Shown: piece by piece, positions 5,982 to 55,319 of the stretch
How positions within the stretch are numbered: the stretch's first letter is position 1
Layout of the letters: each line of letters opens with the position of its first letter
The notes under the pieces: generated by a model
Told to the model about the DNA's origin: nothing
Databases searched by the model: none
Seen by the model: only the letters and a program-made list of their open reading frames with translations
Translations under genes and position numbers: made by a program
Assembly: GCA_001767525.1 (NCBI GenBank)
Contig: MELF01000003.1
Span: 1-59,843 of the forward strand
Direction of reading: 5' to 3'
Length of the DNA stretch: 59,843 nt
Source of the DNA: Acidobacteria bacterium RIFCSPLOWO2_12_FULL_68_19
Lineage (GTDB): Bacteria; Acidobacteriota; Vicinamibacteria; Vicinamibacterales; UBA2999

Positions 5982-6005
5982 TTCGATGCGCGCTTCACCT
6001 CTACA

Positions 6006-6074
6006 GGCCACAGAGACACGGAGGCACAGAGACCGATTGAGAAGCAGCCTCCGTGTCTCTGTGCCTCTGTGGCC
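6006..6074. repeat. CACAGAG-type hairpin, copy 2
   Basis: GGCCACAGAG (6006-6015) and CTCTGTGGCC (6065-6074) are perfect outer arms. Inside them octamer-like units (CACAGAGA, CACGGAGG) repeat. The element separates hisF from hisA and ends 3 nt before the hisA Shine-Dalgarno, so it could act as an mRNA hairpin affecting hisA expression. Confidence 0.8.
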
Positions 6075-6089
6075 CGTGGAGGCGTACCG

Positions 6090-6820: not shown

Positions 6821-7966
6821 ATGGAGAACCCCTTCATCTACGGCGAGATCGTCCCGGACGAGGCGTTCGCGGACCGCGAGGCGGATCTCGATCGGCTGGT
6901 GGCGGATCTCTCGTCCGGCCAGAAGGTCTTTCTCATCTCGCCGCGGCGGTACGGCAAGTCGTCGCTCGTCCACCGCGCGCTCCACACGCTCGCGCGCCAC
7001 GGCGCGCTCACCATCGAGCTGACGGTCAGCAGCTACAGCTCCTACGTCGCCTTCCTCGAGGGGTACGCCCGCGCCCTCGCCACCGTCGAGACGAAATGGC
7101 AGCGCGCCCGTGCCTGGCTGGCCGCTGTGATCACGACCACGCGTCCGGAGCTGCGATACGAGCCGGAGGAAGGCGGGACCGGCCGGTTTTCCGTCGCGTT
7201 TCCTCTCGTCCGCACGGCCCGCGAGGTCAACCGGCTGGCGAACGAGATCTTTTCGCTGCCCGGCCGGCTCGCCGCCGACCGGAAGCGCGCCGTCATCGTC
7301 GCGCTCGACGAGTTCCAGGCGATCGACGCCTTCGACGGCGGCGAGGTGGAGCACGCGCTGCGCGCCGCCGCGCAGCAGCAGCGCCAAGTCGGCTACGTCT
7401 TCGCGGGCTCGGAACCGAGCCTGATGGAGAAGATGATCGGGCCCCGGCGCCCGTTCTACAAAGCGGGTCCCGTCATGCGGCTGGAGAAGATTCCGCCGGT
7501 GGTGTTCGCCGAGTTCGTCGAAGGCCGGTTCGGCCGAGGCGGCATTCGCGCGGAGCCCGGCCTCGGGGCGGCCATCGTCGAGCTGGCGGGAAACCTCCCG
7601 TACGACGTGCAGCGGCTCTCCCACGAAACCTGGGACGACGTGCGCGCCGCCGGCGGGCGGCGGGCCGGCCTGGAGCAGTTGCACGCGACGCTCACCCGCC
7701 TGCTGGCCGAGCAGGACACGCTGTTCGAGGCCGTCTGGCAGCGCCTCACCCTCGCCCAGCGCGCCGTCCTCCGCGCGGTCGTCCTGCAGGGGGGCCGCGA
7801 ACTGCTCTCCGCCGATACCCGGGCGCGGCATCGGCTCGGCGGGCCGTCGAGCATCCAGACATCGCTCGCGGCGCTCATCAAGCACGATCTGCTCATCAAG
7901 CAAGGACCGCACTACGTCGTCATCGACTCGCTCCTGAGGGAATGGATCGCGCGGAAGACGTATTAG
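6821..7966 (+). CDS. archaeal-type AAA family ATPase
   Basis: 381 residues. It begins MENPFIYGEIVPDEAFADRE, the typical opening of the PF01637-like ATPase_2 family. The Walker A is LISPRRYGKSSLV (residues 39-50) and the Walker B is VIVALDEFQAI near residue 160. The C-terminal ~100 residues look like a winged-helix domain (LAQRAVLRAVV... LAALIKHDLLIKQG). The family is widespread, often mobile, and its role is unresolved; links to DNA binding or defence have been suggested. ATG 6821 begins 4 nt after a long palindrome. The stop TAG is the first three bases of a GAAC-type repeat. Confidence 0.85.
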   Translation: MENPFIYGEIVPDEAFADREADLDRLVADLSSGQKVFLISPRRYGKSSLVHRALHTLARHGALTIELTVSSYSSYVAFLEGYARALATVETKWQRARAWLAAVITTTRPELRYEPEEGGTGRFSVAFPLVRTAREVNRLANEIFSLPGRLAADRKRAVIVALDEFQAIDAFDGGEVEHALRAAAQQQRQVGYVFAGSEPSLMEKMIGPRRPFYKAGPVMRLEKIPPVVFAEFVEGRFGRGGIRAEPGLGAAIVELAGNLPYDVQRLSHETWDDVRAAGGRRAGLEQLHATLTRLLAEQDTLFEAVWQRLTLAQRAVLRAVVLQGGRELLSADTRARHRLGGPSSIQTSLAALIKHDLLIKQGPHYVVIDSLLREWIARKTY

Positions 7967-8184
7967 CCTGGATTATTCACGAACGCGTCGTTCACACTGC
8001 TGGGTGCTCCCTTCTCCGTTCGTGTTCCGGTTCGGGTCTGCCGTTCCTCGGTCCCCGTCGAGCCGGTTCGAGGGGTTCCGGCGAGGACGAGCCAGAGCCC
8101 TCCGACCAGTGAACCGCGAACCCGCGAACCGACCGTGAACACGAACCAAGCACCGAGAAGCGTGAACGACTGATTCATGAATAG
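7967..8184. repeat. GAAC-type long hairpin element, copy 1
   Basis: A ~218-bp imperfect inverted repeat begins directly at the ATPase stop codon. The left end reads TATTCACGAACGCGTCGTTC and the right end GTGAACGACTGATTCATGAA. Between them are degenerate GAACACGAACC units in the right arm and their complement in the left. Copy 2 lies at 25640-25867, also directly after a TAG stop, and a shorter copy at 41909-42057. No transposase is linked to it. Confidence 0.8.
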
Positions 8185-25261: not shown

Positions 25262-25639
25262 ATGCAGGCGATCAGCAGCTATCTGGCTGTCGCCAACGTT
25301 GCCGCATCGGTCGAGTTCCTCGAGCGCGTCTTCGGATTCACCCGGGGCGTCGTCCTGCCCGATGCCGACGGCCAGCTCCGCTACGCCGAGATGCGCCACC
25401 GCGACTCGGTCGTGATGCTCGTTCGAAAAGGAGACGCGACGGCCGCGACGAGCGGCGCCGCGGCGCTCTACACCTATGTCGAGGACGTGGATGGCGCGCT
25501 GGCGCGGGCGCGGCAGGCAGGCGCGGGCGTGGGGGAGGCGGAGGACAAGCCGTGGGGCGACCGCGTCGCCGCCGTCACCGATCCGGACGGCTACCGGTGG
25601 GTGCTGGCGACGTTCAAGAAGCTCGCGCCGTTTGCCTAG
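25262..25639 (+). CDS. VOC (glyoxalase-fold) family protein
   Basis: 125 residues. ISSYLAVANVAASVEFLERVFGFTR is the first beta-alpha module; DGALARARQAGA, WGDRVAAVTDPDGYRWVLAT is the second. The fold serves glyoxalases, fosfomycin-resistance proteins and antibiotic-binding proteins. Substrate cannot be read from sequence. The start at 25262 has no clear SD; 25109 is an alternative. The stop TAG is the first codon of a GAAC-type repeat. Confidence 0.85.
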   Translation: MQAISSYLAVANVAASVEFLERVFGFTRGVVLPDADGQLRYAEMRHRDSVVMLVRKGDATAATSGAAALYTYVEDVDGALARARQAGAGVGEAEDKPWGDRVAAVTDPDGYRWVLATFKKLAPFA

Positions 25640-25867
25640 CCTGGATTATTCACGAACCCGTTGTTCACATTGCTGGGTTCTCCCTTCTCCGTTCGTGTTC
25701 CGGTTCGGTTCTGCCGTTCGTCGTTCCCCGTCGAGCCGGTTCGAGGTGTTCCGGCGAGAACGAGCTATAGACCTCCGACGAACATTGAACCGCGAACCCC
25801 GAACACGAACCCTGAACACGAACCGAGAAGCGAGAACCGAGAAGCGTGAACGACTGATTCATGAATA
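25640..25867. repeat. GAAC-type long hairpin element, copy 2
   Basis: Same start (CCTGGATTATTCACGAAC) and end (CGTGAACGACTGATTCATGA) as copy 1 at 7967, again directly after a TAG stop codon. The right arm is a run of GAACCGC, GAACCCC, GAACAC and GAACCCT units. The pair of copies shows this is a defined element, not a chance palindrome. Confidence 0.82.
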
Positions 25868-25874
25868 GGGCGGG

Positions 25875-25902
25875 CTAGCCGGTAGGTGGTAGCCGGTAGC
25901 CG
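25875..25902 (+). repeat. TAGSNGG heptamer array, copy 1
   Basis: TAGCCGG, TAGGTGG, TAGCCGG, TAGCCGC in tandem, 8 nt after the GAAC-type element. Same orientation as the upstream VOC gene. Confidence 0.8.
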
Positions 25903-27884: not shown

Positions 27885-29498
27885 GTGGAGATATCGCGCG
27901 TCCAGGGCCCCCTCGTCGCGCTCGTCTTGCTCGTGGCGCACGCCGCGCTCGCGCAGGATTCCCCTGTCTTTGTCCGTCGATCGGCTCTACCGACTCCGCC
28001 CGTCCTCGACGTCGAGGTGCTGCGGCAGCAGCGTGTTGACATCCCCTCCGCCCAGACACTGTCGAACCCGCAGCAATCCAGCGTGCTCGAGCTCGACCTG
28101 TTTGCCGACGTGTCGTTCCGCGCCGTACGCGAGCGGCTCGAACCCACCGCGCACGGGATGTCGTGGGTCGGCGTGCTCGAGGGCTATCCCGAGAGCACCG
28201 CGCTGTTCGTGCTGGTCAAGGACGAGCTCATCGGGCACATCTACACGCCGTTTGGATTTTTCCGAATCGAGCGGCAGGCGGACGGCACGTATCTCGTCCA
28301 GCAGATCGACCAGAGCGCGTTTCCCGAGGGGCCAGACGTAATTGAGACCCCACCGGAAGCCGCGGACCGCTCGACGGATGACGTGTCGTCAGGCAGGGCC
28401 GACAACGGCAGCGTCATGGATGTCCTGGTGGCCTATACGCGCAATGCCTTGGCAGGCTTTGGCAGCGAGACGCGTGCGTTGGCAACAATTGACCTCGTTG
28501 TTGCGGAAACCAATCAGGCGTTTCGCGGCAGCAGGATTTCGACGCAAATTCGGTTGGTGCACACAACGGGCGTCGACTACGCGGAAGATGGAAGCTCCGA
28601 CTTGGGCCGGTTAAGGAACGCCAGCGATGGCTTCATGGACGGCATACACGGGCTGCGCGACCGCTACGCGGCAGACCTTGTCGCGCTTATTACCGAGCGT
28701 GGGGAGGGTTACTGTGGAATAGCGTACGTGCTGTCCCGTCGTCGGTCCGCCGGCGACCCCGGGGGAGGGTTCTCCGTCACCGTACGAAGCTGTACGGCAA
28801 ACGGGCGCACCTTTGCTCATGAACTTGGACACAACCTCGGCGCCGCTCATGACTGGTACGTGGAAGGGCCCGGGCAAGGAGTGAACGACTACTCTTATGG
28901 CTACGTCAATCTCCCCGGCCGGTTTCGCGAGGTGATGGCGTACTACGATCTCTGTCGAGACACTCGGACGAATTGCGCTAACCTGCTCGCGTATTCAAAC
29001 CCTGCTCTCACCCACAACGGCCGCCGGGCCGGCGTTCCGGTCGGCACCAACGTCACCTGTACCAAAGGCAACGTCAACAACCCCGATTGCGATGCCGACC
29101 TCGCTCGGACGTTTGCCGAAACGGCTCCAGTGATCGCGCGCTACCGCCACAGCCTCACGGCCCTCAGCGCGCGGCAGCTCTTGCCCGGCGCGTCGTTCCG
29201 GTCTGCCGGCGGGCGCTTCCGCCTGACATATCAGACGGACGGAAACCTCGTGCTGTACGACGACCGCGACCGCGTGCCGCTCTGGGCCACGCGCACCGGC
29301 GGCACGAGTCCCGGACAGGCCATCTTGCAGACCGACGGCAACTTCGTCGTGTACGACCGAGGCGGCGCAGCCGTCTGGTCGTCGGGGACGCCCGACAATC
29401 CGAACGCGTACCTCATGGTGCAGGACGACGGCAACGTTGTCATCTACAGCGCGAACGACCAGCCGCTCTGGAGTCGAATGCAGGAGCCTAGCCAGTAG
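27885..29498 (+). CDS. secreted zinc metalloprotease with C-terminal bulb-type lectin domain
   Basis: 537 residues. Signal peptide MEISRVQGPLVALVLLVAHA. A pro-region of ~170 residues precedes the catalytic domain (VMDVLVAYTRNAL...). The zinc site is HELGHNLGAAHD with H312, H316 and H322, and the Met-turn is EVMAYYD, so it is a metzincin of the M12B/reprolysin-like type. Residues ~430-535 hold three bulb-lectin repeats (YQTDGNLVLYD, LQTDGNFVVYD, VQDDGNVVIYS), each with the mannose-binding QxDxNxVxY pattern. GTG 27885 was chosen because GGGAGG lies 5 nt upstream and the signal peptide then begins correctly. Codon use (more A/T third positions) differs slightly from neighbours, suggesting transfer. 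Confidence 0.87.
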   Translation: MEISRVQGPLVALVLLVAHAALAQDSPVFVRRSALPTPPVLDVEVLRQQRVDIPSAQTLSNPQQSSVLELDLFADVSFRAVRERLEPTAHGMSWVGVLEGYPESTALFVLVKDELIGHIYTPFGFFRIERQADGTYLVQQIDQSAFPEGPDVIETPPEAADRSTDDVSSGRADNGSVMDVLVAYTRNALAGFGSETRALATIDLVVAETNQAFRGSRISTQIRLVHTTGVDYAEDGSSDLGRLRNASDGFMDGIHGLRDRYAADLVALITERGEGYCGIAYVLSRRRSAGDPGGGFSVTVRSCTANGRTFAHELGHNLGAAHDWYVEGPGQGVNDYSYGYVNLPGRFREVMAYYDLCRDTRTNCANLLAYSNPALTHNGRRAGVPVGTNVTCTKGNVNNPDCDADLARTFAETAPVIARYRHSLTALSARQLLPGASFRSAGGRFRLTYQTDGNLVLYDDRDRVPLWATRTGGTSPGQAILQTDGNFVVYDRGGAAVWSSGTPDNPNAYLMVQDDGNVVIYSANDQPLWSRMQEPSQ

Positions 29499-29567
29499 CC
29501 GGTAGGTGGTAGCCGGTAGGTGGTAGGTGGTAGCCGGTAGCGGCTACCGGCCACCGGCTACAACCTA
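29496..29567. repeat. TAGSNGG heptamer array, copy 3 (double-ended)
   Basis: From the left: TAGCCGG, TAGGTGG, TAGCCGG, TAGGTGG, TAGGTGG, TAGCCGG on the plus strand. From the right on the minus strand: TAGGTTG, TAGCCGG. The first plus-strand TAG is the stop codon of the metalloprotease. The first minus-strand TAG (29567-29565) is the stop of the S23 gene. The two halves fold back on each other between these converging genes. Confidence 0.88.
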
Positions 29568-29936
29568 GTTGTCGTACGGCTGCATCGATTCGATGAGGCC
29601 GTTGAGCATCTTGCCGACTTCGGCGGTCCGATCGGCCAGACGTTCGTAGTCCTGCTGCGACAGGAATCCAAGACGCAGAGCGACTTCGAGTTGCACCTCC
29701 ACCTCGCCCTGCGATCCAAGCGCGATGTCGAGGTAATGAACGTAGGCGCGCTGTCGCTTACGCCGCCGGCCTTCTCCGATGTTCGAGGGGATCGATACCG
29801 CGGCGCGCCGAATCTGGGCGGTCAGGCCAAACCGTTCGTCCGCTGGGAAGTGCGACGTTGCGCGATACACGTCGTCCACAAGCCCCATCGCTTGCTGCCA
29901 CACCTTGAGATCGCGGAACGATCCGGTCTGCGTCAT
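29565..29936 (-). CDS. four-helix-bundle protein, S23/23S rRNA intervening-sequence family
   Basis: 123 residues: FRDLKVWQQAMGLVDDVYRA, then LTAQIRRAAVSIPSNIGEGR, YVHYLDIALGSQGEVEVQLE and AEVGKMLNGLI. This is the TIGR02436/PF05635 pattern, related in fold to the Avd accessory protein of diversity-generating retroelements. ATG 29936 gives MTQTGSFRDLKVW, the normal family start. It is flanked by inverted heptamer arrays (29496-29567 and 30062-30137), recalling IVS elements of Leptospira 23S rRNA that carry an S23 ORF between inverted repeats. No reverse transcriptase or template repeat is nearby. Function unknown. Confidence 0.9.
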   Translation of the reverse strand: MTQTGSFRDLKVWQQAMGLVDDVYRATSHFPADERFGLTAQIRRAAVSIPSNIGEGRRRKRQRAYVHYLDIALGSQGEVEVQLEVALRLGFLSQQDYERLADRTAEVGKMLNGLIESMQPYDN

Positions 29937-30061: not shown

Positions 30062-30137
30062 TGGGCTACCGGCTAGTTCCTACCGGCTACCGGCTAGTTC
30101 CTACCGGCTACCACCTACCGGCTACCACCTACCGGCT
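30062..30137 (-). repeat. TAGSNGG heptamer array, copy 4
   Basis: On the minus strand: TAGCCGG, TAGGTGG, TAGCCGG, TAGGTGG, TAGCCGG, TAGGAAC, TAGCCGG, TAGCCGG, TAGGAAC, TAGCCGG, TAG. The bshA frame runs into it, passes two out-of-frame TAGs and stops at the third. Confidence 0.88.
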
Positions 30138-31264
30138 AGCTTCCGATAGCACGCCTCGTACATCGGCACCACGCGCTCGACGCAGAAGTGCACCCGCACG
30201 CGGCGGCACGCCGCGGCGGCGACCGCCCTGTGCCGCGCCTCGTCTGTCAACAGCATGACGGCGCTGGCCGCCATCTCGTCGAGCGCCTCGGGCGCGTGGA
30301 GGTACCCGCTCACGCCGTGCTCGATCACCTCGGGCAGGCCGCCGACGCGCGAGGCGACGACCGGCACCTCGCACGCCATCGCCTCGAGCGCGGCAAGGCC
30401 GAAGCTCTCCTGCGCCGACGGCAGCAGGAACAGATCGCTCACCGACAGGAGCGGCACCACCTCCTCCTGCGCACCGACGATGTCGAGGAGATCCGTGATC
30501 CCGAGCTGACGCGCGACGCGGTGCACCGTTCCCCCCTCGGGGCCGTCGCCCACGAGCAGCAGACGCGCCGGCACGGTCCGCCGGATGCGATCGAAGACCT
30601 TCAGCACGGCGTCGATGCGCTTGACCGGCCGGAAGTTGGAGACGTGCGTCACGATCTTCACGCGCGGGTCGTCGCCGGCCAGCCGCCGCCGCAGGTCCGG
30701 GTGGCTCTGGCGGCAGTGGATCGCGCAGTCCAGGAAGTTCGGGATGACCGAGATCTCGCGCGTGATGCCGAGCTCCGCGATGGTCGCTGCGCGCAGGCTC
30801 TCCGACACCGCCGTCACCAGGTCCGACTGCTCGATCGAAAACGCCACGATCCGGGAGTACGACGGGTCGTTGCCGACGAGCGTGATGTCGGTGCCGTGCA
30901 GCGTCGTCACGACGCGCGGCGCCGGCCCGTTGCCGGAGGCCGCGAGCACCTGGCGCGACAGGAACGCCGCCGTCGCATGCGGCACCGCGTAGTGCGCATG
31001 GATGATATCGAGGCGGGACTCGCGCGCCACCTGCACGATCGTGTTCGCGAGCGACAGCAGGTACTGCGGCTCGCGGAAGAGCGGATAGGTCGGCGTCAGG
31101 ACCTGATGGAACGCGAGGCCCGCCTGGAACTCGCCGAGCCGGAAGGGCGTCTCCGTGCTGATGAAATGCACCTGGTGCCCGCGGCGCGCCAGCGCCTTCC
31201 CGAGCTCGGTGGCCACGATGCCGCTGCCGCCGACCGACGCGTAGCAGACGATGCCGATGTTCAT
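30122..31264 (-). CDS. bshA: N-acetyl-alpha-D-glucosaminyl L-malate synthase (BshA)
   Basis: 380-residue GT4 glycosyltransferase for the first step of bacillithiol synthesis (UDP-GlcNAc plus L-malate). It begins MNIGIVCYASVGGSGIVATE and has LDIIHAHYAVPHA, TTLHGTDITLVG, ISVIPNFLD, HVSNFRPVKR and LLPSAQESFGLAALEAMACE (E-x7-E motif). ATG 31264 is the family start; the ORF's upstream extension translates a repeat. The last residues (LAGRW) are encoded by the heptamer array and the stop is its third TAG. bshB1 lies 93 nt upstream on the same strand. Confidence 0.93.
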   Translation of the reverse strand: MNIGIVCYASVGGSGIVATELGKALARRGHQVHFISTETPFRLGEFQAGLAFHQVLTPTYPLFREPQYLLSLANTIVQVARESRLDIIHAHYAVPHATAAFLSRQVLAASGNGPAPRVVTTLHGTDITLVGNDPSYSRIVAFSIEQSDLVTAVSESLRAATIAELGITREISVIPNFLDCAIHCRQSHPDLRRRLAGDDPRVKIVTHVSNFRPVKRIDAVLKVFDRIRRTVPARLLLVGDGPEGGTVHRVARQLGITDLLDIVGAQEEVVPLLSVSDLFLLPSAQESFGLAALEAMACEVPVVASRVGGLPEVIEHGVSGYLHAPEALDEMAASAVMLLTDEARHRAVAAAACRRVRVHFCVERVVPMYEACYRKLAGRW

Positions 31265-31269
31265 CGGAT

Positions 31270-31345
31270 CCAACTCCCAGACACCAACTCCCAACTTCCA
31301 AAGACCACTCGACACTTGGGAGTTGGACCTTGGGAGTTGGGAGTC
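31270..31345. repeat. CCCAAC heptamer hairpin, copy 1
   Basis: CCAACTCCCA units on the left and TTGGGAGTTGG units on the right form a stem between bshB1 and bshA. Units repeat about every 7 nt (CCCAACT, CCCAACT). Further copies: 33308-33379, 34301-34379 and 55255-55319. Confidence 0.8.
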
Positions 31346-33291: not shown

Positions 33292-33554
33292 CAGCGTCGT
33301 CTTCGATGCAACTCCCAACGCCCAACGCCCCAACTCCCACACGAGGGCTGGGAGCTGGGAGCTTGGGAGCTGGGAGTTGTCAATTGTCGTTCGGCGATGC
33401 GCCGCACGGCGACCTCGAGCACCGGCAGGCCGAACATCCGGCCCGGACGGACGCCCCGGTGCTGTTCGGCGAACTCCGTGAGAAACCTGCGAAGGTCGGC
33501 GCGGAACGGACTCGGCACGAAGCGGAATTGTACCTTGCCGCTAAGATGGATCAC
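33291..33554 (-). pseudogene. possible truncated TfoX/YjbR-like gene
   Basis: An open frame of ~87 codons upstream of the FAD gene reads FRFVPSPFRADLRRFLTEFA then GVRPGRMFGLPVLEVA. RMFG-(L/Y)P is reminiscent of TfoX N-terminal domains. The frame then runs into a CCCAAC hairpin (QLTTPSSQAPSSQPS...) where the rest of the domain should be. Start GTG 33554 or an internal GTG. Either a broken gene or a short protein with a repeat-derived tail. Recognition is weak. Confidence 0.35.
33308..33379. repeat. CCCAAC heptamer hairpin, copy 2
   Basis: GCAACTCCCAACGCCCAACG on the left and TTGGGAGCTGGGAGTTG on the right. Units CCCAACG repeat at 7 nt. It lies between the FAD oxidoreductase start and the possible TfoX fragment. 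Confidence 0.8.
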
Positions 33555-33556
33555 CC

Positions 33557-36022
33557 ATGCGGCGCCTCCTGCGCAGTCTGGCGCTCGTTCTCGTCGTCCT
33601 GCTCGCGGCGGCCGCCGCCCTCGTCTTGTGGGGACGCGCCGCACTTCGCGGCAGTCTTCCCCAGATCGACGGCGAACGGCGCGTCGCCGGTCTGTCGGCG
33701 CCCGCCGAGGTCACGCGCGATCGGCTCGGCGTACCGACCGTTCGCGCCGCCACCCGTGCGGACCTGGCGCGGGCAACCGGTTTCCTGCACGCCCAGGATC
33801 GCTTCTTCCAGATGGACCTGGCCCGCCGCCGCGCCGCGGGCGAGGTCTCCGCGCTCGTCGGCCCGCGGGCGCTGGCGCTCGATCGGGAGATTCGTCTTCA
33901 CCGGTTTCGCGCCGTGGCTCGCCGCGCGGTGGGTCTGCTCGGCGCGGCCGACCGTGAGATGGTCGAGGCCTACACCGCCGGCGTGAACGCGGGACTCCAG
34001 ACGCTCGGCGCGTCGCCGTTCGAGTACCTCGTCCTGCGCCAGGCGCCGGCGCCATGGACGCCGGAGGACACGGTGCTCGTGATCCTGTCGATGTACGTCA
34101 CGCTGCAGGACACCGACGGCTCGTACGAAGCGACGCTGGCCACCATGCACGACGTGCTGCCGGCGGCGATGGTGGCGCTGCTCGCGCCGGACGGCTCCGA
34201 GTGGGACGCGCCGCTCGTCGGGCCGGCGTTCGCCGTGCCGCCCATTCCCGGCCCTGACGTGTACGACCTTCGGGCGAGGCGACGCGGAAGACCGCAACCC
34301 CCACCCCCCAACGCCCAACGCCCAACTCTCGAACGGATCGAGTCGAAGTTGGGAGTTGGAAATTGGGGGTTGGGAGTTGACGACGGCCGTGAGCGCGAGG
34401 CGATTGGCAGTAACAGCTTTGCCGTCGCCACTCCGCTCACCACCGTTGGCGGGGCGCTCCTCGCCAATGACATGCACCTCAGCATCAGGGTGCCGAACAC
34501 GTGGTACCGCCTGTCGATCGAGTGGCCGGACGGGTCGGCCCCAGGCGCGCCGAACCGGGTGACCGGCGTGACGCTGCCTGGCGTGCCCGCGATTGTGGCG
34601 GGCAGCAACGGCCATGTGGCGTGGGGGTTCACGAACACGTACGCCGACTGGAGCGACATTGTGCTGCTCGAGGTCGATCCGTCACGTCCACACGCGTACC
34701 GGACGCCTGAGGGATGGCGCGAGTTCGAACGGCACGAGGAAGTGATCGAGATTGCCGGCCAGCCGCCGCAGCGATACGACGTGCTGTGGACGATCTGGGG
34801 GCCAGTGCTCGGGCCCGATCATCGTGGGCGCCCGCGCGCGTATCGCTGGGTGGCGCACGCCGCCGACCGACTGGCCGCCGCGATTGCCCCGATGGAGTCG
34901 GCGCGCACGCTCGGCGACGGGTTCGAGCAGGCGAACGGCGTCGGCGCACCGGGCCAGAACGTCATCGTCGTCGAGCGCGACGGCCGGATTGGCTGGACCG
35001 TGTACGGGTCGATTCCGCGCCGCGTCGGCCTCGACGGACGGATCCCGGCGTCGTGGGCCGACGGCACGCGCGGCTGGCGCGGGTGGCTGGAGGACGGGGA
35101 GTATCCCAGCGTGACCGACCCGCCGAACGGCCGGCTCTGGACCGCCAATGCCCGGGTCGTGGGCGGCGAGATGCTGGCGGCGCTCGGCGACGGCAGCTAC
35201 GAAATCGGATCGCGCGCCCACATCATCCGGGAACGGCTGATGGCGCGCGACCGCTTTTCACCGCGCGATCTGCTCGAGATCCAGCTCGACACGCGCGCCG
35301 ATTTCCTGGCGCGCTGGCGGACGCTCGTGCTGGACACGCTCACGCCGGAGGCAACCAGGGGGAACGCCGATCGCGCGCTGTTCAGAGACATCCTCGAACG
35401 AGAGTGGTCGGGGCACGCCGCGCCCGATTCGGCCGCCTACCGTCTGACCCGGGCGTTCCGCCAACTGATCTCGGACCGCATCGTCGCGTTCGTCCTGGTC
35501 GAGTGTTACGAGGCGGATCCCGCCTTCGACTACAGGGCCGTCCGGCGGCGCGATGCGGCGATCTGGCGGCTCGCCACCGAACAGCCGCCGCACCTGCTTG
35601 ACCAGCGGTACGCCGCCTGGCGCGACATGCTGCTCGAGGCGGTGGATGACACGATCGCGCAGGCGATGCGCGGCCGGCGCGGGACGCTCAGGGACCGGGT
35701 CTGGTCGGAATACAACGAGGTGGCGTACCGGCATCCGTTGTCGGCCGCCGTCCCGTTCATCGGAGGGTGGCTCGATATGCCGCGGGCGACGGTGCCGGGC
35801 GACCTCTACACGCCGCGCGTGCACTGGGGGGCGATCGGCGCCTCCGAGCGCATGATCGTCTCACCAGGGCGCGAGGCCGAGGGCATCATGCAGATGCCGA
35901 CGGGCCAGAGCGGCCACCCGCTCTCGCCGTTCTACGCGAACTCGCATCCCTCCTGGCTCGCCGGCGACCCGACGCCGTTTCTGCCGGGCCCGGCGCTCCA
36001 CACGCTGAGGCTGGTCCCCTGA
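33557..36022 (+). CDS. penicillin acylase family N-terminal-nucleophile hydrolase
   Basis: 821-residue precursor. A membrane anchor or signal (LLRSLALVLVVLLAAAAALVLWG) is followed by the alpha-chain (FLHAQDRFFQMDLARR). The autocleavage site is AIG-SNSFAV with catalytic Ser285. The beta-chain includes LANDMHLSIRVPNTWY, GVPAIVAGSNGHVAWGFTNTYADWSD and PTGQSGHPLSPFYANSH. Members cleave amides such as penicillins or N-acyl-homoserine lactones; substrate unknown here. Residues ~249-275, in the linker excised during maturation, are encoded by a CCCAAC hairpin. ATG 33557 is the first in-frame start. Confidence 0.92.
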   Translation: MRRLLRSLALVLVVLLAAAAALVLWGRAALRGSLPQIDGERRVAGLSAPAEVTRDRLGVPTVRAATRADLARATGFLHAQDRFFQMDLARRRAAGEVSALVGPRALALDREIRLHRFRAVARRAVGLLGAADREMVEAYTAGVNAGLQTLGASPFEYLVLRQAPAPWTPEDTVLVILSMYVTLQDTDGSYEATLATMHDVLPAAMVALLAPDGSEWDAPLVGPAFAVPPIPGPDVYDLRARRRGRPQPPPPNAQRPTLERIESKLGVGNWGLGVDDGREREAIGSNSFAVATPLTTVGGALLANDMHLSIRVPNTWYRLSIEWPDGSAPGAPNRVTGVTLPGVPAIVAGSNGHVAWGFTNTYADWSDIVLLEVDPSRPHAYRTPEGWREFERHEEVIEIAGQPPQRYDVLWTIWGPVLGPDHRGRPRAYRWVAHAADRLAAAIAPMESARTLGDGFEQANGVGAPGQNVIVVERDGRIGWTVYGSIPRRVGLDGRIPASWADGTRGWRGWLEDGEYPSVTDPPNGRLWTANARVVGGEMLAALGDGSYEIGSRAHIIRERLMARDRFSPRDLLEIQLDTRADFLARWRTLVLDTLTPEATRGNADRALFRDILEREWSGHAAPDSAAYRLTRAFRQLISDRIVAFVLVECYEADPAFDYRAVRRRDAAIWRLATEQPPHLLDQRYAAWRDMLLEAVDDTIAQAMRGRRGTLRDRVWSEYNEVAYRHPLSAAVPFIGGWLDMPRATVPGDLYTPRVHWGAIGASERMIVSPGREAEGIMQMPTGQSGHPLSPFYANSHPSWLAGDPTPFLPGPALHTLRLVP
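34301..34379. repeat. CCCAAC heptamer hairpin, copy 3, inside a coding sequence
   Basis: CCCAACGCCCAACGCCCAAC on the left and TTGGGAGTTGG...GGGTTGGGAGTT on the right. It is in frame within the penicillin-acylase-like gene (residues ~249-275, PPPPNAQRPTLERI...), ~30 nt before the codon of catalytic Ser285. Confidence 0.85.
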
Positions 36023-36112
36023 CGGCTACCGGCTACCAGCTACCGGCTACCAGCTACCGGCTACCACCTACCAGCTACCGCCTACCACCTACCGGCTACC
36101 AGCTACCACCTA
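36023..36112 (-). repeat. TAGSNGG heptamer array, copy 5 (about 13 units)
   Basis: Read on the minus strand it is an unbroken array: TAGGTGG, TAGCTGG, TAGCCGG, TAGGTGG, TAGGCGG, TAGCTGG, TAGGTGG, TAGCCGG, TAGCTGG, TAGCCGG, TAGCTGG, TAGCCGG, TAGCCG. The first TAG is the purK stop codon. It fills the whole 87-nt gap to the converging penicillin-acylase-like gene. Confidence 0.92.
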
Positions 36113-38369: not shown

Positions 38370-38387
38370 ACACACCCGCCACGTCAG

Positions 38388-38512
38388 CACCGTCGCACCG
38401 TCCTCGCACCGTCGCACCCTCGCACCGTCCTCGCACCGTCGCACCCTCGCACCGTCGGACGCACCGTCGCACCGTCGCACCCTCGCACCGTCGCACCCTC
38501 GGATCGTCCCAC
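38388..38512. repeat. CGCACC short-period array
   Basis: About 125 nt of CGCACCGT/CGCACCCT/CGTCCTCGCACC units, period roughly 8 with phase slips. It fills the gap between the coiled-coil gene and the converging icd stop. It is not an inverted repeat, unlike the other arrays. Confidence 0.85.
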
Positions 38513-38519
38513 CATCCAC

Positions 38520-41881: not shown

Positions 41882-41908
41882 CTACGACATTCCTCCGTGG
41901 TGAGGATC

Positions 41909-42057
41909 GTTCACGCTTCTCCGTTCTTCCTTCTGTGTTCGTGTTCACGTTCGCGGTGCCCCGTCACGGTCGAGCCCGAGGAACCCCGAACAGAAAACCT
42001 CGAATCCCGAGCCGAACCAGAACGCGAACCGGGAAGCGAGAAGCCAGAAGCGTGAAC
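41909..42057. repeat. GAAC-type hairpin element, short copy 3
   Basis: GTTCACGCTTCT (41909-41920) and AGAAGCGTGAAC (42046-42057) are perfect 12-bp arms. Inner sequence repeats GAAC/GAGCC units. It lacks the outer TATTCACGAA ends of copies 1 and 2. Confidence 0.78.
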
Positions 42058-42062
42058 GACAC

Positions 42063-42158
42063 TCATCGGGAGAAGTATTCCTGGAACAGGTACAGCGCGA
42101 GGAGCGCGGCGGCCCAGAGGACGATCACGCGGGCGTAGTGGCGGCGGGGGTCGGTCAC
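42063..42158 (-). CDS. 31-residue membrane peptide coupled to argH
   Basis: GTG 42158 overlaps the argH stop (GTGA) and the frame ends at TGA 42065-42063. The product has a basic N-terminus (MTDPRRHYARV), one membrane span (VIVLWAAALLALYLF) and a short tail (QEYFSR). Translational coupling, the regular topology and its place upstream of a sodium symporter suggest a real small protein, perhaps an accessory of the transporter. No family is recognised. Confidence 0.6.
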   Translation of the reverse strand: MTDPRRHYARVIVLWAAALLALYLFQEYFSR

Positions 42159-55254: not shown

Positions 55255-55319
55255 ACTCCCACACTCCCACGCGGCGAGCTCCCAATGGGTGGGAGTTGCG
55301 GAGTTGGGTGTTGGGAGTT
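55255..55319. repeat. CCCAAC/CTCCCA hairpin, copy 4
   Basis: GACTCCCACACTCCCAC and GCTCCCAAT on the left, GTGGGAGTTGCGGAGTTGGG and TGTTGGGAGTT on the right. It occupies the divergent gap between pdxA and the MmgE/PrpD gene, ending 10 nt before the latter's ATG. Confidence 0.78.

Follow-up and report, generated by a model that had tools for sequence, protein, structure and literature searches.

A dispersed heptad-repeat hairpin read in frame in the inter-chain linker of a penicillin acylase homologue

Two kinds of described repeat come closest to the one reported here. The Rickettsia palindromic elements (RPEs) are dispersed palindromes that are translated in frame within protein genes (PMC10969869, PMC6649704), and the GGGNATC heptads of Xanthomonas and Nostoc are dispersed tandem arrays of G-rich 7-nt units that are under-represented in coding regions, being 89% and 93% intergenic in two xanthomonads and often arranged as inverted pairs in xanthomonads (PMC4692102). 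As for the protein concerned, studied acylases carry spacers of 54, 37 and 9 residues that are removed ahead of an N-terminal Ser (PMC3461476). As far as the available excerpts of these papers go, the repeat in our window (the whole stretch of DNA analysed, an entire 59.8-kb contig of a 4.2-Mb genome) resembles each of these in part. It is, like an RPE, a dispersed palindrome read in frame in a protein gene; its family, like the GGGNATC repeats, is built of tandem G-rich 7-nt units, dispersed and mostly intergenic; and the peptide that it encodes lies, like the spacers of penicillin and cephalosporin acylases, in a variable segment before an N-terminal Ser. The same excerpts also set it apart. 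RPEs measure about 150 bp, and almost one in two is located in an ORF, whereas here one intragenic copy was confirmed among 30 rows of repeat-bearing DNA, and in-frame palindromes in many unrelated genes, which characterize RPEs, were not found among those rows. Unlike in RPEs, the arms consist of heptad arrays, and one linker repeatedly hosts families that differ in sequence. The GGGNATC word is absent from the window family, whose own word is TTGGGNG (i.e. GGGNGTT). Its G-rich arms point apart, whereas the pairs of PMC4692102 are convergent, as we interpret that wording, and, unlike the Xanthomonas and Nostoc hosts, the window genome has Acidobacteria as its five nearest named relatives. Judged by titles and abstract openings, the open-licence literature yielded no report of a repeat-coded acylase spacer or of heptad repeats in Acidobacteria, and a literature search on repeats in coding linkers found nothing relevant.

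The gene that carries the hairpin (Table 1) encodes a full-length member of its family: the match to PF01804 (Penicil_amidase) spans residues 49-808, and the family's Gly-Ser-Asn at the start of the beta chain is present as residues 284-286. Residue 1 of chains 4hsr_B and 4hst_B was aligned to query residue 285, separate beta chains among the structural matches start at model residue 282 or 285, and Ser-Asn occupies the Ser285 column in 103 of 103 homologues (109 gathered, less 6 duplicates). The distance from Pro231 to this Ser ranges from 26 to 88 residues across the 103 and is 54 in the window acylase. In an AlphaFold2 model with a mean pLDDT of 85.5 (input alignment of 26 sequences), residues 251-282 form the sole long segment with pLDDT below 50. 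An ungapped count suggests that the alpha chains of 4hsr and of E. coli penicillin acylase would stop near residue 247 here. By analogy with the relatives described in PMC3461476, self-cleavage and spacer removal are likely in the window acylase as well, since both the published spacer lengths and the counted alpha-chain ends point to excision of this stretch. Such spacers are probably not wholly free to vary, because the PDB title of 5c9i names the uncleaved form of a relative mutated to have a shorter spacer.

The hairpin at 34295-34379, whose arms are made of 7-nt repeats (CCCAAC.. and GTTGGG..), is in frame and codes for residues 247-275. Its inverted arms (34295-34319 and 34348-34372) are 25 nt long and 80% complementary, and both lie in tandem arrays, the C-rich one first. 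The predicted RNA fold of 34285-34400 has an energy of -54.7 kcal/mol; 200 shuffles gave -39.7 (sd 4.1; z -3.67), and none was as low. An Rfam search gave 13 matches up to E 1, none above its cut-off and the best at 29.2 bits versus 77. By eye, the loop peptide LERIES is faintly like the linker core of relatives that have no clear repeat (DRVE in L003, TRVD in L005). These results bear out the preliminary description, which had seen an in-frame hairpin just before Ser285 (arms, fold, open frame and structure alignment agree) and had assigned it to the linker between the two chains, where the model lacks order at 251-282. Its placing of the hairpin was right in substance and needed adjustment at the edges: the start lies 6 nt before 34301, the residues encoded are 247-275 rather than ~249-275, and 34380-34408 is repeat-free linker. 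An assembly artefact was ruled out, because an array is also present in a separate genome (G001) and decayed forms are present in further genomes.

Table 1. Coordinates of the acylase gene, its linker and hairpin, and other copies of the repeat family in the window.
Feature	Position	Strand	Basis
Penicillin acylase (Ntn-hydrolase) homologue, 821 aa	33557..36022	+	Pfam PF01804 E 4.5e-142; closest structure D-succinylase 7ea4/7eby, Z 33
C-rich heptad arm (CCCAACG-type), residues 247-257	34295..34326	+	inverted-repeat and tandem-repeat scans
Hairpin loop, ~20 nt, peptide LERIES	34327..34346	+	inspection by eye
G-rich heptad arm (TTGGGAG-type), residues 264-275	34347..34379	+	inverted-repeat and tandem-repeat scans
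Low-confidence linker of model, residues 251-282	34307..34402	+	pLDDT <50
Ser285, beta chain residue 1 by homology	34409..34411	+	structure alignment, homologue alignment
Same-family hairpin between bshB1 and bshA (site A)	31270..31344		synteny; empty site in two other genera
Same-family hairpin upstream of acylase (site B)	33309..33379		synteny; empty site in one other genus
Single G-rich heptad arm, same family	55290..55319	+	tandem-repeat scan

The acylase hairpin belongs to a dispersed family of this lineage, whose members have two arms of 7-nt units, a variable loop and the C-rich arm first. TTGGGAGTTGGGAG has 33 matches in this genome and its reversed control 0. For TTGGGNGTTGGGNG there are 57+51 = 108 matches, against 1 for the reversed control, and 38+35 in a genome of the same genus, where the control gave 2; at least one match was found in 25 of 59 genomes, many of them with just one or two, which is the control level. 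The arms are strictly polar in this genome (21 pairs C-first, 0 G-first and 10 single arms), in a sample of own-genome DNA mostly chosen because it contained the family word. By eye, loops vary among elements, and arms differ from element to element instead of reproducing one master. Thirty own-genome rows were tested for coding, a set in which some rows represent one element twice and which covers part of the elements of the genome. In four the reading frame was open and the same on either side, namely in the acylase, the bshB1-bshA gap, L051 and L056. As intragenic copies, L051 was dropped because the 2 ORFs scanned had no Pfam match, L056 because its downstream side scores as non-coding, and the gap because of synteny and its place between two genes; the acylase is the one confirmed intragenic copy among the 30.

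Sites A and B were compared by synteny with three relatives (the names bshB1 and bshA are taken from NCBIfam). Both are filled in G000 and G001. Site A is empty in G005 and G013, where 8 and 13 bases, respectively, separate aligned blocks that stand 99 bases apart in the window, and site B is empty in G013, with 10 bases versus 223; the 1.7 kb of other DNA that G005 carries at site B is uninformative as to filled or empty. The empty sites imply that the intergenic copies were gained, or else cleanly lost. They also bear on local slippage, by which a Pro/Gly-rich linker would have grown heptads on site, starting with a short seed and involving no mobile element. Slippage could explain why linkers that have heptads overlap in length with those that lack them, why the loop is weakly like the host's linker core and why arms differ among elements (by eye) instead of following one master. 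We nonetheless consider it unlikely, given that the words of the linker are those of the intergenic family, that the arms are paired and polar at 21:0, that intergenic sites are empty in relatives and that palindromes which are not tandem also fill the linker (see below).

Some further observations concern the repeats of the window. The hairpin at 31270-31344 stops about 5 nt ahead of the bshA ATG, and a GGGAG of the bshB1-bshA heptads, 9 nt before that ATG, could act as a ribosome-binding site. Arrays of the 7-nt unit CTACCNN occupy 29489-29568, 30064-30138 and 36025-36112, one of them directly behind the acylase stop codon. Long inverted repeats with units like GAACCGA or GAAGCGA are found at 7964-8184, 25637-25878 and 41901-42065, with 92% similarity between two of them across 143 nt. 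Hairpins of CACAGAGA-like units of about 8 nt lie at 1551-1622 and 5991-6089, and a CGTCGCAC tandem array lies at 38382-38513, its words also being enriched in a 108-kb genome sample.

We asked whether the linker is special within the gene. A lag-7 score of at least 25 was reached in 21 of 430 scoring windows of the linker (6 genes) versus 7 of 6,926 elsewhere (2 genes), and an inverted-repeat score of at least 15 in 3 linkers versus 0 of the 6,926; inverted-repeat scores of at least 11 were found outside the linker too, in 13 genes. Collapsing related rows leaves a modest enrichment (p 0.015 and 0.002). The majority of the 103 linkers have no outstanding hairpin: the mean rank of the linker by inverted-repeat score is 0.50, and it tops all scoring windows in 8. 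Counting motifs gave 28 matches in 9 linkers and 0 in the 233,802 other bases of these genes, which, because the words were chosen from linkers and the window, shows just their absence elsewhere in the genes. When 23 genes were compared by BLAST with 45-120-kb samples of their own genomes, E<=1e-4 was obtained only for the L001 and L010 linkers, and weak matches lay outside the linker in 16 of the 23. A de novo test for over-represented 11-mers, on samples too small for the purpose, yielded nothing for the linkers.

How old is the acylase copy? The hairpin had been taken for an insertion of this genome's own, and an alignment with close homologues had been proposed to see whether they lack it. 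They do not all lack it: heptads are found in the linkers of L001, L002, L004, L006, L009 and L013 (five rows named by family words in a pattern, L004 by eye) and are common to several genera. The linker holds the gene's top lag-7 score in all six, although it does so in 24 of 103 genes for any reason, and the rank by itself is not enough to name the family. The right boundary GTTGACGA is common to L001, L004 and L006. In a tree built without the linker, all six rows fall into one clade of 11 (SH-aLRT 80) that is poorly resolved inside, so that the preliminary description's alternative of an ancestral repeat-coded linker finds a counterpart within this one clade and none across distant homologues. 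At least 4 gains plus losses of heptads are required on the tree, and with such poor resolution both one gain with decay and several gains are compatible with this number. The heptads of L004 look like a relic, because its genome has no exact pattern match; conversely, G013 has 39 family matches, yet its linker has no visible heptads. Across rows, heptads in the linker track the abundance of the family, being present in 5 of 7 rows with at least 10 matches and in 1 of the 10 rows below that number (Fisher p 0.018). Some linkers with no visible repeats are about as long (60-63 versus 66 residues), and a clean 79-nt insertion therefore cannot be shown here. A recent insertion private to this genome's acylase would suit the little-decayed arms and the abundance of the family in this genome, but we give it hardly any credence: five other rows of the clade have heptads, among them L004 with no exact match in its genome, and L002, L004 and L006 largely refute the idea. 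As to timing, then, the idea of a private insertion is wrong, whereas that of a tolerated site stands. Separately, the L013 homologue (G014) has a TGA 38 residues past the catalytic Ser, so that this gene is either broken or affected by a sequencing error.

Across lineages, this linker houses six repeat families that differ in sequence, each of them dispersed in its host; four were picked since the linkers looked repetitive, and two came from an own-genome search of 21 further linkers. The L010 linker carries a GGGATTN heptad with 224 matches in its genome G015 (control 16) and 0 in G000, the window genome. (Among the matches listed, and by eye, the GGGATTN arms in G015 seem to run G-rich arm first, opposite to the CCCAAC family.) The sister rows L017 and L071 have a CACAGAAA-type hairpin in the linker; searched at E<=1e-3, that of L071 gives 26 match rows in G067, 2 of which are its own place, and 7 in G033, the genome of L017. 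L076, titled Proteobacteria, has a CCCCTCTCCC palindrome in its linker, with 44 match rows in G066, one being its own place. The own-genome search took 21 of the 24 other linkers of L003-L028, 84 nt each (L022, L026 and L027 were omitted), and L020 and L028 had already been suspected by eye to be palindromes. The L028 linker matched at least 15 other places in G054, all at E<=4e-4 and the best at 1.6e-18, and the L020 linker at least 14 in G025 (at least 13 at E<=1e-3, best 9.7e-9). L009 and L013 matched at least 2 other places each in their own genomes; for L006 (at least 2) and L023 (at least 1) the matches were weak (E 0.004-0.01). Control pieces of equal length were taken elsewhere in these 21 genes, and are conserved coding sequence rather than disordered loop. 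Of these, G013's had matches at E<=0.01 in at least 4 other places (0.002-0.006, apart from one of 1.6e-7 that crosses a join) and G021's matched at least 1 weakly. Among the matches listed, at least 3 other places at E<=1e-3, a bar set afterwards, were found for 2 of 21 linkers versus 0 of 21 controls, and at least 1 for 4 of 21 versus 1 of 21.

That different kinds of sequence fill the site speaks against the repeat being kept for a function, whether as an mRNA hairpin that would slow the ribosome between the chains or as a peptide (e.g. its Trp) that would sit in the active-site cleft until cleavage. Of 29 near homologues, 19 do have a Trp 20 residues or fewer before the Ser, including some with no repeats, as a role for the peptide might predict; over the whole set it is found in just 32 of 103 and is not family-wide, and most homologues have no outstanding hairpin. 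We regard a function of either kind as very unlikely.

The acylase hairpin is, in our judgement, probably best explained by dispersed repeats landing in a tolerant, flexible linker and then decaying. Repeats would arrive or grow genome-wide, and copies in folded protein would be lost; the linker would retain them, being flexible and presumably, like that of studied relatives, cut out during self-processing; and the arrays would then decay, or gain and lose length in frame-preserving steps only. The results support a tolerant linker: as the preliminary description proposed, the site accepts insertions, being 26-88 residues long and holding other lineages' own host repeats, and the published spacers of 54, 37 and 9 residues agree with such tolerance, while its wording that an insertion there costs nothing goes too far in view of the 5c9i title. 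More tentatively, with the balance tipping slightly against us, the self-excised linker may be a genomic safe harbour, which across bacteria would capture the host's dispersed repeats, have them translated and cut away, and let coding DNA evolve like intergenic DNA. If excision makes a coding stretch nearly neutral, self-processing spacers would be traps that record which repeats were active, in which lineage and when. Such traps would offer a direct test of how large a share of the cost of an in-frame insertion is borne by the protein, as opposed to the mRNA or DNA.
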